Assembly: GCA_903831865.1 (NCBI GenBank)
Contig: CAIKZH010000029.1
Coordinates: 1-33,240, forward strand
Direction: 5' to 3'
DNA: 33,240 nt
Source of the DNA: an uncultured Coriobacteriia bacterium
GTDB lineage: Bacteria; Actinomycetota; Coriobacteriia; Anaerosomatales; PALSA-660
Below the pieces are notes generated by a model. The model was not told where the DNA came from, made no database searches, and was given only the letters and a program-made list of their open reading frames with translations. Position 1 is the first letter of the stretch. Each line of letters opens with the position of its first letter. The position numbers and the translations under genes were made by a program. This document shows positions 10,012 through 31,503 of this stretch, piece after piece.

Positions 10012-10650
10012 TCATCGGATGAGCGAACCCACCAGCGCGGGCAACCCGGACAGTTCGACCGCCGTGTAGACGAGCGTGAGCGAGAGCACTCCCGCAATGA
10101 TCGCGCGATCCCGGTCCGTCCGCAGCCATCTGCGAACGGTCATCCCGGAAGCCGCCCAGAGTGATGTCGAGGTCATGCTCAGGAGTGCCAGCGCCACCGC
10201 GCTCACCGCGAGCGGGATCGGCTTCGAGGCGAGCGCCACCAGGAACGTCGAGTACATCATGAGCCCGTAGACGATGGCCTTCGGGTTCGCGAACTGGAGC
10301 ACGAAGCCCCCGGGGAAGCCGTGCGAGCGCGGCACCTCTTTCTCCCCCACCGCCCGTCCGAACTCCGCTCGCTTCGCCCACGTGGTCCACGCGAGCCACA
10401 GGATGTAGGCGGCGCCGACGTACTTGAGGTACGGCTCCACGGCGGGAAGCGCGCCGAGCAGCAGCGCCGCCGCGGCCGCGCACACGAGCATGACCACCGT
10501 GAAGCCGCACGTGACGCCGACGATGAAGGGCAGCGACCTCCGGTAGCCGTACATGACCCCCAGGGAGGCGCTCATCACGTTGTTGGGGCCCGGGCTGAAC
10601 GTCGCGGCCAGGGCGAACGTCAACGTCGCGGCGAGGGGGATCTGGTACAA
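10012..10650 (-). CDS. LysE/RhtB-type amino-acid exporter
   Basis: An inner-membrane transporter of the LysE superfamily, which exports amino acids or related compounds. The family signature FSPGPNN is near the N-terminus, followed by several hydrophobic segments consistent with the usual six helices and the conserved stretch YLKYVGAAYILWLAW. I favour the TTG at 10650: it follows GGAG with 6-base spacing and places the first helix at the N-terminus, giving 212 aa, the usual family length. The frame stays open upstream to 10758 but is Arg-rich and unlike a family N-terminus. The gene follows the 68-aa protein gene. The substrate cannot be told. Confidence 0.9.
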   Translation of the reverse strand: MYQIPLAATLTFALAATFSPGPNNVMSASLGVMYGYRRSLPFIVGVTCGFTVVMLVCAAAAALLLGALPAVEPYLKYVGAAYILWLAWTTWAKRAEFGRAVGEKEVPRSHGFPGGFVLQFANPKAIVYGLMMYSTFLVALASKPIPLAVSAVALALLSMTSTSLWAASGMTVRRWLRTDRDRAIIAGVLSLTLVYTAVELSGLPALVGSLIR

Positions 10651-10726
10651 GAGCTTCTCCTTGACGCGGTCGGCGACCCCGCGCCTGAGGCGGCGGTCGC
10701 GACCGCGGACGTGGGTCGGGCTCCGT

Positions 10727-10933
10727 TCAGCGCCGGACGATGGACGCACCGGCGGCAAGCGCCAAGGTTACCCCGAGCAGTGCCGGCAGCGCACACCCGC
10801 CGCCCGTGATCATCCTGCCTATCTTGCGCTCCCGGCCGCTCCGGGTGAGTGGGACGCCCGTCGCGCGCGAGATGCTCGACTTCACGCGAGTGATGCCCAG
10901 CGCCCGCTTCCAGGAGAACCCGCCTCTGTTCAC
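10727..10933 (-). CDS. Small conserved-looking protein, 68 aa, basic N-terminus and hydrophobic C-terminus
   Basis: This short gene starts at GTG 10933 behind a strong Shine-Dalgarno (GGAGGAGAGG). It encodes a basic, Ser/Thr-rich N-terminal half (GGFSWKRALGITRVKSSISR, then LTRSGRERKIGRM) and a Gly/Cys turn. A hydrophobic C-terminal segment (about residues 47-64) ends in RR. I recall similar small proteins with a FSWKRALGIT...TRSGRQRKIG pattern in other bacteria, but no named function. It begins 23 bases after the GNAT-RsgA stop and precedes the LysE-type gene, so it is probably in the same transcript. Membrane association is inferred from the hydrophobic tail. Confidence 0.75.
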   Translation of the reverse strand: MNRGGFSWKRALGITRVKSSISRATGVPLTRSGRERKIGRMITGGGCALPALLGVTLALAAGASIVRR

Positions 10934-10956: not shown

Positions 10957-12564
10957 TCAGCCGTCGCCCTCGCGCCCCGGATCCCGCTTCGCGACACGAT
11001 GTGCCCGCGAGTCTCGGGCGTCCTCGGCCCGAAGCCGGCTCTCCACCTTCGTCGAGGCGCTCTGTGCCTCGCCGACCAGCTTGTGGTAGCTGGCGAGACG
11101 CTCCGCGGACAGCGCACCGGACTCCACCGCGGCACGCACGGCACAGCCCGGCTCCGCGTCGTGCGTGCAGTCGCGGAACCGGCACCGTGACGCGGCCTCC
11201 TCCACGTCCGGGAACGCCGAGGCGATGCCCTCCGGCGATCCCGTCAGTCCGAACGCCCGGAGCCCTGGCGTGTCGATGAGCAGACCTCCGCCCGGCATCC
11301 TGAACAGTTGCCGTGACACCGTCGTGTGGCGCCCTCGCCCGTCGCTCACGCGCACCTCGCGCGTCGCCTGGCGCTCCTCGCCGAGCAGCGCGTTGATCAG
11401 CGTCGACTTGCCCGCGCCCGACGGGCCCACCAGCACGGCGGTGCGATGGCCCGACAGGTAGCTCAGGAGCTGCTTCGCGTCCTGCGGGTCACGCCCGTTC
11501 GCGAGGACCACGTCTGTGTCCGGTGCCACGCCCTCCACGGCGGCGAGAGCCGCGACCGGATCTGCGGAGAGATCCTCTTTCGTCAGCACCACCACGGGGA
11601 CGGCGCCCGAGTCCCAGGCGACCGACAGCTCACGCTCGATGCGGCGAAGGTTGGGCGGCTCGTCGATCGGATGCACGACGAAGACCGTGTCGATGTTCGC
11701 GGCGAGGACCTGGACCTCTGAGGTCCTTCCGGGGTCGGACCGGGACACCGCGCTCGCGCGCTCGAGGACGGCCGCGATGAACGGCGAGTCGGGTCCTTCG
11801 GGAGTCGCCACAGCCACCCAGTCGCCGACCACCGGCCGGTCCATCGCAGCGCTCCCGGCCTTCGACAGGGTGGCGGCGAGGCGCGCCCGGACGACTCCCT
11901 CGGAGGTCGCCACGACCGCGCTGCCTCGAGAGGTCCTCACCACCCGCGCCAGCGTCATGCCCCTCGACGCAAAGGGCTCGAAGAGCGACGCCCAGCGCTG
12001 CGAGTAGCCGAGCGCTTGAAGCGCCTGCTCGACGTCAGCGATCGTCCTCGCCATCAGCAGGTCGTCCTGGAGGTCGCTGCCGAGCTGGAAGCTCTGGCGC
12101 CCGACGACATCGAACCCCATCCGGCGGTAGAACGCGATCGCCCCCGGGTTGCGCTCCCATACATCGAGCCACGCGACGTCGCACCCCCGCGCCGCCGCGG
12201 CATCCAGCGCGGCCGCCATGAGGCGGGTCCCGATCCCGCGGCCGATCCACGGCTTGTCGATGTAGAAGCGCACGATCTCCGCCGGCGCTCGAGCGGTCAC
12301 AGCCGCCGGCGACGTGCCGAGACGCACCCTCGCGTAGCCCACCGCGGAGCCGCCCGTCTCGGCGACGAGGACCACGCCGGACGTATCCCCGATCTCACGC
12401 GCCTGGATGTCGGCGCCGAATGCCGAGGCGAGGTAGGCGGCCATGTCCTGCTCGGTGTTGTACTCGGCGAAGGTGTCGAAGAAGGTCCGGGCGCCCAGCT
12501 CCGCCAGCATCCCGGCGTCCGAGTCACCCGCACGGCGTATGTCGAGCGGAACGGGGTCCATCAC
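10957..12564 (-). CDS. rsgA: GNAT acetyltransferase fused to ribosome-assembly GTPase RsgA
   Basis: One 535-aa open frame. Residues 1-172 are a GNAT acetyltransferase with the acetyl-CoA loop WIGRGIGTRL (107-115) and WERNPGAIAFYRRMGF. From about 175 the frame is a full RsgA: OB-fold region, then the circularly permuted GTPase with G4 TKED (328-331), G1 GPSGAGKST (380-388) and G3 DTPG (431-434), then a zinc knuckle C461, C466, H468, C474. RsgA is a 30S-subunit late-assembly GTPase. No stop separates the parts. An internal ATG at residue 171 could start RsgA alone but has no clear ribosome site. The gene starts (GTG 12564 or ATG 12561) on the stop of the DUF2164 gene, so the two are coupled. 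Confidence 0.92.
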   Translation of the reverse strand: MMDPVPLDIRRAGDSDAGMLAELGARTFFDTFAEYNTEQDMAAYLASAFGADIQAREIGDTSGVVLVAETGGSAVGYARVRLGTSPAAVTARAPAEIVRFYIDKPWIGRGIGTRLMAAALDAAAARGCDVAWLDVWERNPGAIAFYRRMGFDVVGRQSFQLGSDLQDDLLMARTIADVEQALQALGYSQRWASLFEPFASRGMTLARVVRTSRGSAVVATSEGVVRARLAATLSKAGSAAMDRPVVGDWVAVATPEGPDSPFIAAVLERASAVSRSDPGRTSEVQVLAANIDTVFVVHPIDEPPNLRRIERELSVAWDSGAVPVVVLTKEDLSADPVAALAAVEGVAPDTDVVLANGRDPQDAKQLLSYLSGHRTAVLVGPSGAGKSTLINALLGEERQATREVRVSDGRGRHTTVSRQLFRMPGGGLLIDTPGLRAFGLTGSPEGIASAFPDVEEAASRCRFRDCTHDAEPGCAVRAAVESGALSAERLASYHKLVGEAQSASTKVESRLRAEDARDSRAHRVAKRDPGREGDG

Positions 12565-12860
12565 GTATCCGACGTCCCGTCGTCGCCGACGAGGGCGTCG
12601 GGCCGGGCCGATGCGCCGTGAGCTTTCCAGAAGTCGAACTCGGGCTCGTAGCAGGCGCCGCCCAGGTCCGAGACCTTGTCCTGCAGGAAGGACTGGGCGT
12701 CGGCGATGGCCTGGTTGTAGATGCTCGGCCCGATCTCCCGGACGCAGTAGTCCAGAACGCGGAGGGCCTTGAGGTCGCCGATGTCGTCATCCATCTCGTC
12801 GGCGAAGAAGCGCTTCACCGAACTGACGAGGTATCTCTCCGTCTCCTTCTCGAGCCTCAT
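12561..12860 (-). CDS. DUF2164 family protein (99 aa)
   Basis: A small soluble protein matching the DUF2164 pattern: an N-terminal LEKETERYLVSSVKRFFADE helix, then the Asp/Glu-rich MDDDIGDLKALRVLDYCVREIGP and YNQAIADAQ. The family has no established function. The ATG at 12860 follows GGAGGAGG at workable spacing; an upstream in-frame start at 12893 adds only a Gly-rich stretch. Its stop overlaps the start of the GNAT-RsgA gene, implying co-translation. A C-terminal extension (FDFWKAHGASARPDAL and beyond) is acidic at the end. Confidence 0.85.
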   Translation of the reverse strand: MRLEKETERYLVSSVKRFFADEMDDDIGDLKALRVLDYCVREIGPSIYNQAIADAQSFLQDKVSDLGGACYEPEFDFWKAHGASARPDALVGDDGTSDT

Positions 12861-14394: not shown

Positions 14395-15288
14395 TCACGT
14401 CCTCTCGAGACGCAGGATCACGAACGCGGCCTCGGTCGCGATCGAGTCGCCCCCGAGCGCGGCGGAGTCCTCGGTCCTGTGCCGACTGCTGGGTCCCATA
14501 CGCATCACGTCCATCGCCGAATCGGCCGACAGCTCCATCGGGTACCGCAGCTCCTTCCTGTCCGCCAGCCGGAAGCCGTCCCGGAGCCGCTCGCGCACGT
14601 GCGCCTCCTTGTCCTCCTGGATGTCGAGGAGCCCCAGCGCCGTCCGCAGGCTGGCGAGGTGCGCCTCCGACGGGATCACGACGATGGCCGTCCCGCTTGG
14701 CGGGACGACGCGAGCGAACTCAGAGGCGTCCCGAGGCGCGAACACGTCCAGCAGTACGTTCGCGGAACCGGTCTGCAGGTAGATCCTGCGACGGACGTCG
14801 GCGACGAGGAAGCGGGCGTGATGGTATCTCCTCGACGCGAGCCTGACGGCCGACTTCGAGATGTCCGCGCCCACGAAGACCGGCGTCGCATCGCCGCGGC
14901 CCTTCAACCGTTCGGCGATGGAGCCGATGTAGTAGCCCTCACCGCACCCGACTTCCAGCACGCACGCTCCACGCGCCGCGTCGGATCGAGCGACGTCGCT
15001 GTGAGCAAGACACGATCCGACCTCGGCGACCAGCTGGTCCAACAGGAGCCGGTAGTGTCCCGACTCGAGGAACCGACGACGAGCCTGCAGCATGGCGAGG
15101 CTGTCGCCCTCGATCCCCCGAACACGGTGTTGGGGCGGCAGCAGGTTGACATAGCCCTCTCGCGCCACGTCGAAACTGTGCCCGCTCGGGCACACCAGGC
15201 TTCCCGGCCCCGATCTCAGCTCCCGCTCGCACACGGGACAGATGAGTGGCCAGGCGTCGTTGCGTCCTCCTGGGTCCATCGCTGACAC
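14395..15288 (-). CDS. rlmA: 23S rRNA (guanine-N1) methyltransferase, RlmA type
   Basis: A 297-aa protein with the RlmA layout: an N-terminal zinc finger (C17, C20, C33, H37 in CPVCEREL...LVCPSGHSFD), the connecting motif AREGYVNLLPPQHR, and a class I SAM fold with LEVGCGEGYY (111-120). The family methylates G745 or G748 in 23S rRNA helix 35 near the exit tunnel; the G748 branch (TlrB/RlmA-II) affects tylosin resistance. Which base is modified here cannot be read from the sequence. The GTG at 15288 follows GGGAG at 5 bases; an ATG follows at 15279. It stands alone, divergent from the reductase gene at 15564. Confidence 0.9.
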   Translation of the reverse strand: MSAMDPGGRNDAWPLICPVCERELRSGPGSLVCPSGHSFDVAREGYVNLLPPQHRVRGIEGDSLAMLQARRRFLESGHYRLLLDQLVAEVGSCLAHSDVARSDAARGACVLEVGCGEGYYIGSIAERLKGRGDATPVFVGADISKSAVRLASRRYHHARFLVADVRRRIYLQTGSANVLLDVFAPRDASEFARVVPPSGTAIVVIPSEAHLASLRTALGLLDIQEDKEAHVRERLRDGFRLADRKELRYPMELSADSAMDVMRMGPSSRHRTEDSAALGGDSIATEAAFVILRLERT

Positions 15289-25245: not shown

Positions 25246-26403
25246 TCAGCCCACCGAGCCGGCTGTGGCGTCGCTGACCTTCACACCCCTGACGAGGAGC
25301 CACAGCGCCAGCCCGACTTCAGCGACGAAGCTCACGGCGAGCCCGGGGTAGGTGATCACGGGGTAGGCCGGTAGCAGGAGGGCCTGAAGGAACCAGATCA
25401 GGACCGCGATCCCGTCGAGCATCAGAAGGACGCCCAGGAACCGCGGAAGGAACTTGGACGTGTAGACCAGATAGCCGAGCGGGAACAACCACGTGCCGAA
25501 GAACAGCTGGGCCGTGACGAAGCCCGTCTTGTAGACGTTGATGAACAGGTACGCCAGCCCCTCCAGCTGTGCCCCCGAGAAGGCTCGCACGCGGCCGACC
25601 CCGTCCCCCAGCAGCATCGCGGATATCAGCGGGAGCATGCTCGCGCACTGAATGGCGACACCGACGGTGTTGAGCAGCAGGAACAGCAGGGCCAGGTCCC
25701 TGTTGACCGGTCGCAGAAGAACGTACAGACCCCAGGCAGCCATGAGGAAGAGGAACGCTGATGTGAAGGCGATGACAAGACCCAGACGGAACGACCAGAC
25801 ATTCGCGGCGATCGCCTGGTAGACCTGCGGCGCTGAGCCCAGCCCGACGTGCCCCAGAGCGTCGGCCAGCACGGAAGCCAGGATGAACGCGAGGTAGAAG
25901 CCGCCCGCGATCCGGGCTACCTTCTCCGGGGCCATGTGATCGGTGGTGTTGGGAGACATCCCCGCCCTCCTCCTGTCGATGACGCGCGCCGACCGTGGTC
26001 GCGGCCGGCCGCGCGCTCGAGCGTAGCGCTTCGTCAGGACCACGACCGCTCGCCGCCTCCGGGCGAACATGCCGGCCACGGGCACGAGCAGAAGCCACCA
26101 CGCTGAGACGGGCATCAGGACGCATCCGGCGATCGTGAGCGCAAGGAGTGTCCAAGGAAGGAACCCGGGGAAAGCGATGCCGAGTCGTTCGAGGTGGTGC
26201 ACGAGACCGCCGACCAGGAAGGCAAGCACGCCGGAGACGAAGAACCAGAACGTGGCGGCAGTCGCTGAGGCCTGCGACAGTGTGACTGTGTTGAAGAGCC
26301 CCCGATGAAGCAGTGGCGCGAGCCGGCCGCCGAGAACTGCGATACCGAAGACAGTGTGGATCGCCGCCACAGCGAGGATGCTCCGTCCGATCCAGACGCG
26401 CAT
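25246..26403 (-). CDS. In-frame double membrane protein: DUF6463-like + DUF4386
   Basis: One 385-aa open frame without a stop. Residues 1-120 look like a small four-helix DUF6463-type membrane protein (opening RVWIGRSILAVAAIHTVFGI). A basic linker follows (ARARGRPRPRSARVIDRRRA). From residue 149 (ATG 25959) a complete DUF4386 protein begins (EKVARIAGGFYLAFILASVL, then about six more helices). A strong ribosome site (AGGAGG, 6 bases before ATG 25959) and a promoter-like element at 26020-26025 suggest the second part can be made on its own. The first part starts at ATG 26403 behind GGGAGG. Function of both families is unknown. Whether a 385-aa fusion or two proteins are made is open. Confidence 0.82.
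   Translation of the reverse strand: MRVWIGRSILAVAAIHTVFGIAVLGGRLAPLLHRGLFNTVTLSQASATAATFWFFVSGVLAFLVGGLVHHLERLGIAFPGFLPWTLLALTIAGCVLMPVSAWWLLLVPVAGMFARRRRAVVVLTKRYARARGRPRPRSARVIDRRRAGMSPNTTDHMAPEKVARIAGGFYLAFILASVLADALGHVGLGSAPQVYQAIAANVWSFRLGLVIAFTSAFLFLMAAWGLYVLLRPVNRDLALLFLLLNTVGVAIQCASMLPLISAMLLGDGVGRVRAFSGAQLEGLAYLFINVYKTGFVTAQLFFGTWLFPLGYLVYTSKFLPRFLGVLLMLDGIAVLIWFLQALLLPAYPVITYPGLAVSFVAEVGLALWLLVRGVKVSDATAGSVG
25959..26025 (-). promoter_or_regulatory. Internal promoter-like element and ribosome site before the DUF4386 part
   Basis: TACGCT (minus strand, 26020-26025, in the GCGCTACGCT context) and AGGAGG shortly before the ATG at 25957-25959 lie inside the long open frame. They support separate expression of a 237-aa DUF4386 protein (25246-25959). 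Confidence 0.45.
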
Positions 26404-26438
26404 GAGTCTGCCTCCCGACCCCGGCCCCACCGCTCACC

Positions 26439-26444
26439 AGTCTA
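26439..26444 (-). promoter_or_regulatory. Putative -10 element of the 26403 gene
   Basis: The minus strand reads GGAAGGTAGACT, placing TAGACT 36 bases upstream of ATG 26403. No clear -35. Confidence 0.38.
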
Positions 26445-26463
26445 CCTTCCGAGGCGCGACAGG

Positions 26464-26514
26464 CTGCACCTTGGCGAAGTGGCCGGTGGGGGTGCAGGGT
26501 GACCCAGGCTGGGT
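26464..26514. promoter_or_regulatory. Inverted repeats upstream of the 26609 gene
   Basis: Two perfect inverted repeats lie in the 205-base divergent gap. CTGCACC (26464-26470) pairs with GGTGCAG (26491-26497), and ACCCAG (26502-26507) pairs with CTGGGT (26509-26514) across one base. They could be an operator or an mRNA structure; neither is shown. Confidence 0.35.
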
Positions 26515-26608
26515 GAGCCGGGAGCCGTCGGCGTGCCCCGACATCCCCGAATGGGCAGGTAGACATTTGAGACGGATACATTGCAGAAGTCCCAAGGGAG
26601 GGATAGGA

Positions 26609-27073
26609 GTGTCCAACGTTGTCGATTTCGAGAACGTGTCCACAGCGGGCCTGGAATCTTCGCCCGTCGCCGCGGCCCTTGCCGGCCTGCGTGCCAACGA
26701 GGCGCGGTATTCCATGAACAAGTACAAGCATGCGTTCACGGTCGTGCCGGCCAGCGAGAGCCAGGACACGCTGGACTACGTGAGTGGGATCCTCAAGAAG
26801 GAGCGTGACATCGAGTTCGCCGCCAAGCCGCTGGAGACCTCAAGCTACGAAGCGGAAGGCACCCGGTTCGCTCACGTGTTCTATGAAGATGGCCTTGAGG
26901 TCAACGTCATGTACGCGATCGATGATCCCAAGAAGCGGGCTGTCGGCTTCAAGCTCTCCGAAGGGATGGAAGTGCCCAAGGAGCTCGAAGGCAGGTTCAA
27001 GTTCGCCCGGCAGAAGTCCAAGCTCGCCGGGACGATCCGCGGCTCGTTCTTCGTGATCAAGGGCGACCACTAG
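26609..27073 (+). CDS. Unknown soluble protein (154 aa)
   Basis: A soluble protein with no family I recognise. The N-terminus is an uncharged Ala-rich segment, followed by NKYKHAFTVVPASESQDTLDYV, charged helices (LKKERDIEFAAKPLETSSYE) and a C-terminal region rich in Lys/Glu (ELEGRFKFARQKSKLAGTIR). There is no signal peptide or membrane segment. GTG 26609 follows AGGGAGG; the frame is open further upstream but loses protein-like character. Codon use matches its neighbours. Confidence 0.82.
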   Translation: MSNVVDFENVSTAGLESSPVAAALAGLRANEARYSMNKYKHAFTVVPASESQDTLDYVSGILKKERDIEFAAKPLETSSYEAEGTRFAHVFYEDGLEVNVMYAIDDPKKRAVGFKLSEGMEVPKELEGRFKFARQKSKLAGTIRGSFFVIKGDH

Positions 27074-27112: not shown

Positions 27113-28000
27113 TCACCGGATCTTGCCGCGCTCGCGATCCGACAGGACCCCGCCCACCGATCGCAGATCCCGATGCCACGAAACGTCGGGACCGTCGGCG
27201 TCCACAAGGAAGGTCAGCGTGTCATGATCCGCGTCAACGGAGATGAACATCCGCACCTCGGAAGCCAGCCCGATCTCAGTCGCACATGACTCAAGCGCAG
27301 CCGCCCAGCCCTCGCGCCATGCAGTGACGTCGGTGACTCTGCCGGACAACGCGACGCCACCCTCCTGCGACCCCGGCTTCATGTCTGTCGAGCGAGGCGA
27401 CCGGATCGTGTGGGTCTCGCCACGCGAACGCGAGTGGTAATCGAGAGCCGACGAGATCTCCACGTCTGCCCCGCGGATGAGCATCAGAAGCTTGCAGCCC
27501 AGGTACTGCGCGTCAGGCGCCCATTCACGTGCCGACCCGTCCGACAGGTCGTGGATGCGATCGAACTCGGCCTTGCAGGGGATCCGGGCGGCCAACGCCT
27601 CCTGCGCCCTGGCGACCCGCTCGACCGCGTCCTTCATGGCCTTGAGCGCTTCGGGGGCGTGCCCCTGCCAATCCGCGACCTCGCCCGTGACCCGCAGCGG
27701 CCCCGTTGAGCAGTACGACTTCGTCGGGTTACCCGGGAATCTCTTGTCCGTCAGATCGGGGTCATCCACGATCGGGCCGGTCGGTTCCACCACGTAGATC
27801 CTGCCGGGTCCTTCGCCGCGGGCCAGCTCGGCTCCCCAGATGGCGGCCTCAAGGGTGCGGGTCATATAGACCCAGGTGGTAGTCCTCTTCACCTTGCCGA
27901 AGTTGGGCCGCTGGCCTGGCCTGATCAGGTCCCCCGGCTTCAGGTCAGCCTTGGTGCCATGGTAGAACCGCTGTGGACTCGAGTCGTCGGTGACTGCCAC
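27113..28000 (-). CDS. arr: Rifampin ADP-ribosyltransferase (Arr) with extra C-terminal domain (295 aa)
   Basis: Residues 10-133 are a full Arr: FYHGTKADLKPGD (catalytic His14), TTWVYMTRTLEAAIWGAELA (Tyr45), RIYVVEPTGPI, DLTDKRFPGNPTKSY (Asp85) and GEVADWQGHAPEAL. Arr transfers ADP-ribose from NAD to a hydroxyl of rifamycins and inactivates them. The family is usually about 140 aa. Here about 160 residues follow that I do not recognise (KAEFDRIHDLSDGSAREWAP, a GCKLLMLIRG strand, a Ser/Arg-rich linker, then a beta-rich MFISVDADHDTLTFLVDADG). The GTG at 28000 has only a weak ribosome site. Convergent with the 154-aa gene and downstream of a methyltransferase gene. Confidence 0.93.
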   Translation of the reverse strand: MAVTDDSSPQRFYHGTKADLKPGDLIRPGQRPNFGKVKRTTTWVYMTRTLEAAIWGAELARGEGPGRIYVVEPTGPIVDDPDLTDKRFPGNPTKSYCSTGPLRVTGEVADWQGHAPEALKAMKDAVERVARAQEALAARIPCKAEFDRIHDLSDGSAREWAPDAQYLGCKLLMLIRGADVEISSALDYHSRSRGETHTIRSPRSTDMKPGSQEGGVALSGRVTDVTAWREGWAAALESCATEIGLASEVRMFISVDADHDTLTFLVDADGPDVSWHRDLRSVGGVLSDRERGKIR

Positions 28001-28046: not shown

Positions 28047-29021
28047 CTACTCGACGACGGCGATCGCAAAGCCGCCCCACGCGCGCTCCGTCTCCGTCTC
28101 TAGACCGAGCGTGCGCTGCTCTGAGAGCGCCAACCCGCAGGATCGGAGAAGCTCGGACAGGCGCTCCCGCGATGGTGGCGTGCTGTCAACGCCGAACTTG
28201 AGCGGCTCGCCTGCCGCCCTGGTCGATGCTCGCGCGAAGCGCCAGTACATGTCGTTCGACTCAAGGGACACCGAGGTGTAGTAGTCGAACGCCAGGAGCG
28301 TGCCTTTGGCGCAGCTCGCGACCTTGCGCAGCGTATCCTCGACGGCCTCACGGTCCAGGTAGATGAGCACGCCCTCCCAGAGGAAGAGCGCTGGGCGACG
28401 GGTGTCCAGGCCGGCCTCGACCAGCTTGCCGAGCCAATCCTCGGCCTCGAAGTCCGCGGCGACGAACGCGACCTTGGTGGTGTCTATCCCGGCTTTGTCC
28501 AGCATCTCGGTCTTGAGAGCCTGCGTCTTCGGCGTATCGACCTCGAAAGACATGACCGGCGAGTCCCTGGGAAGGCGGTACGGCCGGGTGTCGAACCCGG
28601 CGCCGAGTGTGACGAACTGGTCGATGTCAGGAAGGAAGCGGTCGACCACATCGTCGAAGAAGGTCACTCTGGCCCCGGCCTCCACCGCGGGAGCGACGTC
28701 GCCTTCGAACGGGTAGCGGAAGGTCTTTGGGACGAAGCCGGTGGCGGCGTGGGCGAGCATCATGGGCCAGCTTGTCAGACGCATGCCCAGCCACGGCACG
28801 CCGGGCACGATGGGCAGCAGCCGGTTCGCCGCCTCGTCCTCCCGGACGCCCAGGTTGTGCATCGTCCAGCGAGCGGACAGTGGGCCCTGCGCAGTGGTCG
28901 AAATGCCCGGTGTCTTCACGAACAGGAGCTTGCCCACCCAGATCACGAAGCCGACCAGCGTGACCGGGAACAGAACGACCATGAGCGCGTAGTAGGCGAA
29001 GGCGGCAGCTCTCTTGGGCAT
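28047..29021 (-). CDS. LCMT-type SAM methyltransferase with N-terminal membrane segment (324 aa)
   Basis: A second LCMT/PPM1-like methyltransferase. Visible are FVTLGAGFDTRPYRLP (SAM loop), the acidic VMSFEVDTPKTQALK and ALFLWEGVLIYLDREAVEDTL. Residues about 10-32 form a hydrophobic helix, so it is probably membrane-anchored, unlike the copy at 398-1234. The ATG at 29021 follows GGAAGGGA at about 9 bases; ATG 29042 is the alternative. The promoter-like TACGCT at 29089-29094 lies in a dispersed repeat. The substrate is unknown. Downstream on the strand is arr. Confidence 0.92.
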   Translation of the reverse strand: MPKRAAAFAYYALMVVLFPVTLVGFVIWVGKLLFVKTPGISTTAQGPLSARWTMHNLGVREDEAANRLLPIVPGVPWLGMRLTSWPMMLAHAATGFVPKTFRYPFEGDVAPAVEAGARVTFFDDVVDRFLPDIDQFVTLGAGFDTRPYRLPRDSPVMSFEVDTPKTQALKTEMLDKAGIDTTKVAFVAADFEAEDWLGKLVEAGLDTRRPALFLWEGVLIYLDREAVEDTLRKVASCAKGTLLAFDYYTSVSLESNDMYWRFARASTRAAGEPLKFGVDSTPPSRERLSELLRSCGLALSEQRTLGLETETERAWGGFAIAVVE

Positions 29022-29085
29022 CGCGGGATCCCTTCCGCTCATGGTGCTCACGTGTCCGGCTTCAACGACTGGCCGATCGCTCGTC

Positions 29086-29130
29086 GAGAGCGTACCGCTT
29101 CCGCAGTCCGTCTGGACGCGCTTGTGAGGC
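29086..29130. repeat. Dispersed 45-base repeat, copy 1
   Basis: About 84% identical (38 of 45) to 31483-31527. It holds an imperfect inverted repeat (AGCGCTTCC-like / GGACGCGCT-like arms) and, on the minus strand, a GGAAGCGGTACGCT promoter-like word upstream of the methyltransferase gene. Confidence 0.6.
29089..29094 (-). promoter_or_regulatory. Putative -10 element of the membrane-anchored methyltransferase gene
   Basis: TACGCT on the minus strand, 68 bases upstream of ATG 29021, in a GGAAGCGG context and within the dispersed repeat. No clear -35. Confidence 0.38.
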
Positions 29131-29219
29131 CATGCTCTCTGGATCGACCGCATGTTTCGGATAGGACGGCACGCCAGTCGCGTCGTAGGCTTGTCGCATC
29201 GGCGACAAAGGAGGAGTTC

Positions 29220-29873
29220 GTGAGCCATGTCTACGCCCCGGGCTGCGCCCTCATGCTCTACAAGCCGCACCTGGCCGAGCGGGTGTTGACTCACCTCGAC
29301 TCGGTCGAGACCGGGATCGCGAGCCACCTGACCTGCTGCAGACATGAGCCACGTCTCGAGCCGGGCTCCGTCGTCATCAACACCTGCGCAGGCTGCGACA
29401 GGCGCTACCGCGAATGCTACGAGGGCATCTCGACCATCTCACTGTGGGAGGCTCTGGCCGTCAGTGAGACCTTCGACTTCCCTGACTACGCCGGCGCCGA
29501 GATGACGGTCCACGACGCCTGCCCGACACGTACGGAGCCCAGGGTCCACGCCGCCGTTCGCAAGCTGCTCGACCGGATGAACATCGTCGTCGTCGAACCC
29601 GAAGCGACTCGCACTCACGCCGTATGCTGCGGCGACAGCTTCTTCGGCAGGCTTCCCGACGACGAGGTGAAAGCACTCATGGCGAGGCGTGCGGAGTCGA
29701 TGCCTCGAGAAGATGTGGTCGTCTACTGCGTCTCGTGCGTCAAAGCGATGGCCATCGGTGGCAAGAGGCCGAGATACCTGGTCGATCTGCTCTTCGGCGA
29801 GGAGACCGTGCCGGGAGTCCACGAGCCGGGTGCGTGGCATGCCCTGCTCGAAGGGTTCATCGCCGAGCACTGA
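29220..29873 (+). CDS. CCG-domain (HdrB-like) Fe-S protein, 217 aa
   Basis: A cysteine-rich protein of the CCG family, as in heterodisulfide reductase subunit B and related Fe-S oxidoreductases, where CCG motifs bind non-cubane [4Fe-4S] clusters. Motif 1 comprises C9, C39-C40, C56 and C59; motif 2 comprises C101, C136-C137, C170 and C173. The first motif is short between CC and CxxC (15 residues; family usually about 33-36), the second is near canonical. The GTG at 29220 follows AAAGGAGGAG at ideal spacing. No HdrA, HdrC or hydrogenase partner is nearby. An electron-transfer or thiol-disulfide role is inferred. Confidence 0.9.
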   Translation: MSHVYAPGCALMLYKPHLAERVLTHLDSVETGIASHLTCCRHEPRLEPGSVVINTCAGCDRRYRECYEGISTISLWEALAVSETFDFPDYAGAEMTVHDACPTRTEPRVHAAVRKLLDRMNIVVVEPEATRTHAVCCGDSFFGRLPDDEVKALMARRAESMPREDVVVYCVSCVKAMAIGGKRPRYLVDLLFGEETVPGVHEPGAWHALLEGFIAEH

Positions 29874-30725: not shown

Positions 30726-31187
30726 TCACGCCAGCGCCTTCTCGTAGCAAACGCAGAGCTTACCGCCTTGGTATTCGCCGAAGAGCGGTATGCGGCAGTA
30801 TCCGCATGACTCGTAGAGCGCCAGGGCCTCCGGCTGTCGGACACCGGATCCGAGCCTCACAGCCGAGTTGCCCAGGGCGCGCCCTCGCGCCTCGAGCACT
30901 TCAAGCATCCGGCGGGCAGCGCCGAGGCGCCGAGCCTCCGGTACAACGAACATCCGCTTGATCTCGCCAACACCCTGCTCGAGCTCGCACAGCGCGCCGC
31001 AGCCGACCGGAGCGTCGCCGCGATACGCGACGACAACGACGAGCAGGTCCTGAGCTGGAGTCGACCCGTCGGTGCTGATCCCGGGATAGCGGTCTTCGAG
31101 TTCCTCATCGAGGCCTGAGACAAGGGCAGCGAAGTCGGGCGAATCACACTCCACGAGGCGGACAACGTGGTCCGAACACGAAGCCAA
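30726..31187 (-). CDS. GNAT N-acetyltransferase (153 aa)
   Basis: A small acetyltransferase with VVRLVECDSPDFAALVSGLD, GDAPVGCGALCELEQGVGEIKRMFV, then EARRLGAARRMLEVLEARGRA (acetyl-CoA loop, with the R/Q-x-x-G-x-G/A region) and ALALYESCGYCRIPLFGEY, typical of GNATs near the C-terminus. I favour TTG 31187, five bases after GGGGGAG; no ATG or GTG fits as well. The frame is open upstream to 31340 but is not protein-like. The substrate is unknown. Confidence 0.9.
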   Translation of the reverse strand: MASCSDHVVRLVECDSPDFAALVSGLDEELEDRYPGISTDGSTPAQDLLVVVVAYRGDAPVGCGALCELEQGVGEIKRMFVVPEARRLGAARRMLEVLEARGRALGNSAVRLGSGVRQPEALALYESCGYCRIPLFGEYQGGKLCVCYEKALA

Positions 31188-31242
31188 CGGTACTCCCCCG
31201 ATCCTGTCCAACGTGGCGCCGCATGACCCGCCGGGGTGCGGC

Positions 31243-31503
31243 CTACAGGCGCAGAGCGATGACGGCGACAACCACGATCCAAACTGCGTAGGTAGCCACC
31301 ATGAATCTATTGGGCCAGCCCTGGTAGACGCGAGGACCACCGACCTCCCCAGCCGAGGGGTCCTTGATCCTTGCGCGAACGATAGACCCGAAGAAGGTGA
31401 TCACCCCGATCCATGTCGCGACAGTCGCGAAGACCAGCGGGCCTTGGCTTGCCGACCACGTGGGACTGAGGAGGAGACAGAAGAGAGCGCAGCGCTTCCG
31501 CAA
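31243..31503 (-). CDS. Small membrane protein (86 aa)
   Basis: An 86-aa protein with two or three hydrophobic segments (about residues 6-15, 22-41 and 67-85), a conserved-looking loop SIVRARIKDPSAGEVGGPRV and YQGWPNRFMVATYAVWIVVV. I cannot name the family. The only in-frame start before the hydrophobic region is TTG 31503, which has a weak ribosome site and lies in the dispersed repeat, 18 bases after the stop of the upstream gene. The N-terminus may therefore be mis-set. Confidence 0.68.
   Translation of the reverse strand: MRKRCALFCLLLSPTWSASQGPLVFATVATWIGVITFFGSIVRARIKDPSAGEVGGPRVYQGWPNRFMVATYAVWIVVVAVIALRL

Follow-up and report, generated by a model that had tools for sequence, protein, structure and literature searches.

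Genome analysis of an uncultured Coriobacteriia bacterium revealed a reading frame in which a complete PaiA-like GNAT acetyltransferase precedes a complete ribosome-assembly GTPase, RsgA. The observed join is probably a genuine in-frame fusion, private, as far as the compared sequences indicate, to this lineage. The favoured explanation, held with moderate confidence, is a chance fusion through loss of a stop codon, in which both enzymes would work and the GNAT would be a passenger. The source is a genome bin of 2.16 Mb (192 contigs, 96% complete), and the fusion lies on contig C29 in the window, i.e., the whole stretch of 33,240 nucleotides that was analysed. No report of a GNAT–RsgA fusion was found in the literature searched.

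The minus-strand frame 12564..10957 is open across 535 codons and contains no stop between GNAT and RsgA, in agreement with the first-pass annotation of one stop-free frame. Its description of the motifs of both enzymes as intact also stands, every catalytic residue checked being kept in both halves. The same frame carries the Pfam domains Acetyltransf_1 at residues 49–151 (E 1.1e-18) and RsgA_GTPase at residues 266–440 (E 1.7e-44). The GTG at 12564, originally taken as the start, is probably not the true one; the ATG one codon downstream is likelier, because it shares bases with the stop codon TGA of the preceding DUF2164 gene (TGATG). This overlap suggests that translation of the two genes may be coupled. 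GC3 is high along the frame and does not drop where the two halves meet (0.93 and 0.90 in the flanking windows), and therefore the whole frame looks coding. The features are listed in the table.

Table. Features of the GNAT–RsgA fusion gene and its direct neighbours (positions in the window)
Feature	Position	Strand	Remarks
GNAT–RsgA fusion gene	10957..12561	-	likely start ATG 12561; 534 aa, 56.5 kDa
PaiA-like GNAT domain	12037..12561	-	residues 2–176; complete
RsgA half	10957..12036	-	residues 177–535: conserved N-terminal extension, OB fold, circularly permuted GTPase, zinc knuckle
RsgA GTPase domain PF03193	11245..11769	-	TKED (G4), GPSGAGKST (G1), GRGRHTT (G2 region), DTPG (G3)
RsgA zinc knuckle CRFRDCTHDAEPGC	11143..11184	-	residues 461–474; C461, C466, H468, C474
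Junction M-ARTI-ADV	12031..12054	-	GNAT C-terminal strand straight into RsgA N-terminal extension, no linker
Junction sequence DLLMARTIADVEQALQALGYSQRW		-	spans the GNAT–RsgA join
Internal ATG, codon 171	12054..12052 (element 12052..12068)	-	AGGA at 12068..12065, 10 bases upstream
DUF2164 gene	12561..12860	-	directly upstream; ATG 12860 after strong GGAGGAGG site
LysE-type transporter gene	10012..10758	-	downstream of fusion

The RsgA half scored 153.1 bits against the family profile TIGR00157 (cut-off 100) and is a member of this family; the structure of Escherichia coli RsgA (2ykr) matches most of it. Its G motifs follow the circularly permuted order G4-G5-G1-G2-G3, with TKED at residues 328–331, then GPSGAGKST at 380–388 and DTPG at 431–434. 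The knuckle CRFRDCTHDAEPGC fits exactly the C-terminal zinc motif of RsgA, Cx(F/Y)xxCxHxx(E/D)xxC (PMC9032327). All domains of the RsgA/YjeQ/YloQ proteins (TIGR00157, PF03193) are thus shared with the C-terminal 359 residues of the fusion; unfused representatives have no GNAT in front, whereas the fusion carries a complete GNAT enzyme at its N-terminus. In the late stages of 30S assembly, RsgA acts as a clamp on helix 44 and checks the decoding centre (PMC9032327). The fusion is the sole RsgA above the family cut-off in its own genome, and a second, unfused RsgA, searched for in the bin by the same cut-off, was not found. Because the motifs are intact and no other RsgA was found in the genome, the fusion is expected to keep ordinary RsgA function.

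The GNAT half resembles PaiA-type enzymes, represented by the structures 1tiq (Bacillus subtilis PaiA), 8osp (LcGNAT) and 4e2a (Streptococcus mutans). The structure 1tiq aligns ungapped, end to end, over residues 9–175 of the fusion, and E96, Y101 and Y146 correspond, at a constant offset of 4, to E92, Y97 and Y142 of LcGNAT, a canavanine acetyltransferase in which the importance of these residues was shown by mutagenesis (PMC10416765). The catalytic Glu/Tyr/Tyr set of the polyamine acetyltransferase subclass is accordingly present, and the degenerate P-loop is also common to the GNAT half and this subclass. PaiA-type enzymes are separate proteins of about 175 residues, whereas the chain of the fusion runs on into RsgA. 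Against NCBIfam NF053587 (PaiA spermidine/spermine N1-acetyltransferase) the GNAT half scored 103.9 bits (E 7.7e-30), and the fusion 107.3 bits in the whole-genome search; since 103.9 bits lies below the equivalog cut-off of 250, the GNAT half is classed, by sequence, as PaiA-like only and not as PaiA. A RimI-like role was ruled out by the profile scores: although the GNAT fold is shared with RimI, the ribosomal protein S18-alanine N-acetyltransferase, the match to its profile TIGR01575 reached only 43.2 bits (cut-off 86.4), far weaker than that to PaiA. Solved relatives of the GNAT half take spermidine/spermine or canavanine (PMC10416765), and because characterised relatives use these compounds, a small amine is its likely substrate; with the NF053587 match under the curated cut-off, the label "polyamine enzyme" is a prediction.

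The first-pass annotation stated that RsgA is normally alone, and the relatives read agree. The closest RsgA orthologues (in genomes G001, G002 and G005), which are from the same family, are 64–67% identical and have no GNAT in front. In the phylogenetic tree the RsgA half is sister to that of G001, a genome of the same genus as the fusion bin (support 0.98), next to those of G005 and G002, all unfused. The branches leading to the RsgA half and to G001 RsgA are equal (0.27 and 0.26), and therefore no burst of change followed the fusion. PaiA-like GNATs 54–57% identical to the GNAT half were found in only three other genomes (G051, G059 and G008) of the 69 of the order, as separate genes with no RsgA nearby; these relatives are 53–60% identical among themselves, and the GNAT half is not more divergent than they are. 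Judging from these comparisons, neither half looks decayed after the fusion. Both halves therefore do occur as separate genes in relatives, the arrangement that had been named as evidence against a fusion, but no relative has them adjoining with a stop between them.

The search for GNATs was extended to 298 genomes of the class and 396 of the phylum; the phyla to which a gammaproteobacterial MAG and a Vicinamibacteria MAG belong were also covered, with 398 and 297 genomes, respectively. At none of the 86 PaiA-like GNAT loci examined elsewhere, among which some genomes contribute two overlapping loci, was RsgA present within 1.5 kb, and at all 86 the frame stops at the normal end of the enzyme. 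A conserved pair of a PaiA-like GNAT gene and rsgA in relatives was ruled out by this count and by the lack of a PaiA-like GNAT before RsgA in the relatives read. In a whole-protein search of the 298 class genomes, no second fusion was present among the matches listed; apart from the window's own, none of these starts before query residue 136, and the two starting before residue 170 (G055 and G286) read through a stop. A contig scan with the fusion as query returned only RsgA relatives, and a scan of viral contigs for GNAT relatives found none. The same fusion, which the first-pass annotation had proposed to look for in related genomes, was thus found, among the genomes examined, in this one only.

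Within the order, RsgA was not detected by TIGR00157 in four genomes of the genus g14 (G018, G029, G035 and G064) and in G048, which are 92–100% complete, one of them being a single contig, while G016, G020, G021 and G042 contain two RsgA genes each. RsgA thus seems, from these gene counts, to have been lost and duplicated within the order. Since some well-completed genomes have none and others two, rsgA may be regarded as evolutionarily fluid here, and a private change of this gene is therefore less surprising than the same change would be in E. coli.

Separate PaiA-like GNATs end at query positions 174–193, mostly 175–176, and the RsgA of relatives starts at about residues 171–182, within roughly ten residues of position 181; the join coincides, in frame, with the natural GNAT end and the natural RsgA start. 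In the structure model the RsgA half has pLDDT values mostly of 75–90, and the GNAT half is meaningless, because the input alignment contained no GNAT homologues; domain packing was therefore left uninterpreted. The exact position of the join speaks against an artefact, which is improbable; in that case, misassembly or an error deleting a stop would have joined two separate genes. Such an origin would agree with the absence of the join from every other genome examined and with the source, a bin of 192 contigs. However, GC content is alike on either side of the junction (0.71 and 0.72), and reinstating a stop behind the GNAT would leave RsgA with ATG 203 as its first available start, at the cost of N-terminal residues whose conservation extends to G001, G002 and G005. 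Undoing a single base error thus does not recreate two normal genes, because RsgA would then have no start codon preserving its extension.

The only in-frame ATG, GTG or TTG between the halves is ATG 171, located in the last strand of the GNAT. It opens the way to a two-product reading, in which full-length GNAT–RsgA would be made together with RsgA alone, either from this codon (365 aa, 38.4 kDa) or through cleavage of the fusion where its halves meet, and the bulk of RsgA would be ordinary. The codon stands where the RsgA of relatives begins, some 11 residues ahead of the conserved LxxLG motif, and is preceded by AGGA at a distance of 10 bases, but the pairing energy of this site (−4.0) equals the background (median −3.7), and other in-frame ATG and GTG codons of the frame score better. 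Both the methionine and the residues around it belong to conserved GNAT sequence (DLIMAKTL in 1tiq), so that the codon is explained without a role as a start. The frame was also examined for a strong internal ribosome-binding site from which RsgA could be made separately, and none was found; the two-product reading is considered rather unlikely. A further alternative, also improbable, is a selected device in which the GNAT acetylates an rRNA-bound polyamine, a ribosomal protein tail or RsgA itself at the maturing 30S subunit, linking the acetyl-CoA or polyamine state to ribosome assembly. It is consistent with the intact active sites of both halves, and any working RsgA should come from the fusion gene, the only one found. 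There is also a precedent in plant mitochondrial RsgA (9evt), whose C-terminal extension blocks the mRNA channel of the ribosome (PMC12672651); both proteins are RsgA with added sequence, but in plants the extension is a helix at the C-terminus that has been kept widely among land plants, whereas that of the fusion is an N-terminal catalytic domain present in one genome. Acetylation of a ribosomal protein, an rRNA-bound factor or RsgA, as initially suggested, is not supported by the data: the GNAT is PaiA-like rather than RimI-like, its nearest homologues stand as separate genes in neighbourhoods without RsgA, and none of the other genomes examined shares the fusion. The GNAT would be delivered to the 30S subunit only if the uncleaved fusion binds 30S, and the sequence is compatible with a functional coupling of GNAT and RsgA there. 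A version in which a two-activity protein acetylates rRNA-bound polyamines or a nearby ribosomal protein during the decoding-centre check, so that assembly tracks the acetyl-CoA or polyamine level is very improbable.

Chance fusion is considered likelier than ribosome acetylation because the join was seen in no other genome examined. According to this favoured explanation, the gene of a PaiA-like small-amine acetyltransferase would, in this lineage, have become the immediate upstream neighbour of rsgA, after which the intervening stop codon would have been lost. Since neither half looks decayed, the fusion would be recent and the link incidental. The outcome would be one protein with two complete enzymes, in which the RsgA half presumably carries out its usual GTP-dependent check of the 30S decoding centre in late assembly, while the GNAT half would independently move acetyl groups from acetyl-CoA to a polyamine or an amino-acid analogue. 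Accidental adjacency and co-expression of the two genes, and not selection for a device that acetylates ribosomes, would probably account for the physical link. A point against the chance-fusion explanation is that the fusion is present in one genome bin only, and persistence or selection cannot be judged from one. Moreover, a domain in front of RsgA could disturb it unless tolerated or removed, because the N-terminus of E. coli RsgA, in particular its first 20 residues, matters for 30S binding (PMC9032327).

If the fusion is stable, RsgA tolerates a complete N-terminal enzyme although its N-terminus helps to bind 30S, and the protein would serve as a naturally occurring construct to ask whether GNATs can be brought to pre-30S particles. 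If it arose by chance, it is a clear case of two adjacent genes merged by loss of a stop codon, and it warns against inferring function from a domain fusion in a single genome.

Among the neighbouring genes, a LysE orthologue (62% identical) is also located downstream of rsgA in G001, with a further gene between; this shared order is in line with the favoured explanation. Upstream of the fusion, likewise on the minus strand and beyond three small genes, lies the gene of an RlmA-like 23S rRNA methyltransferase (14395–15288), another ribosome-related gene in this gene run. The minus-strand frame 27113–28000 carries a rifampin ADP-ribosyltransferase domain (Arr-ms, E 5e-44) at residues 12–111 and is a possible resistance gene; its remaining C-terminal part, of about 180 residues, matched nothing in Pfam. 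Leucine carboxyl methyltransferase (LCM) domains were found in two frames, 398–1279 and 28047–29345 (minus strand). A second GNAT frame (30726–31340, minus strand) has a 68% identical relative in G051 (L057, 11848–12318), about 1.4 kb from the PaiA-like GNAT of that genome. Near those two G051 genes, a 75% match to positions 26354–27073 of the window and a weak RibD_C relative are also present; parts of the fusion contig are grouped differently in G051.
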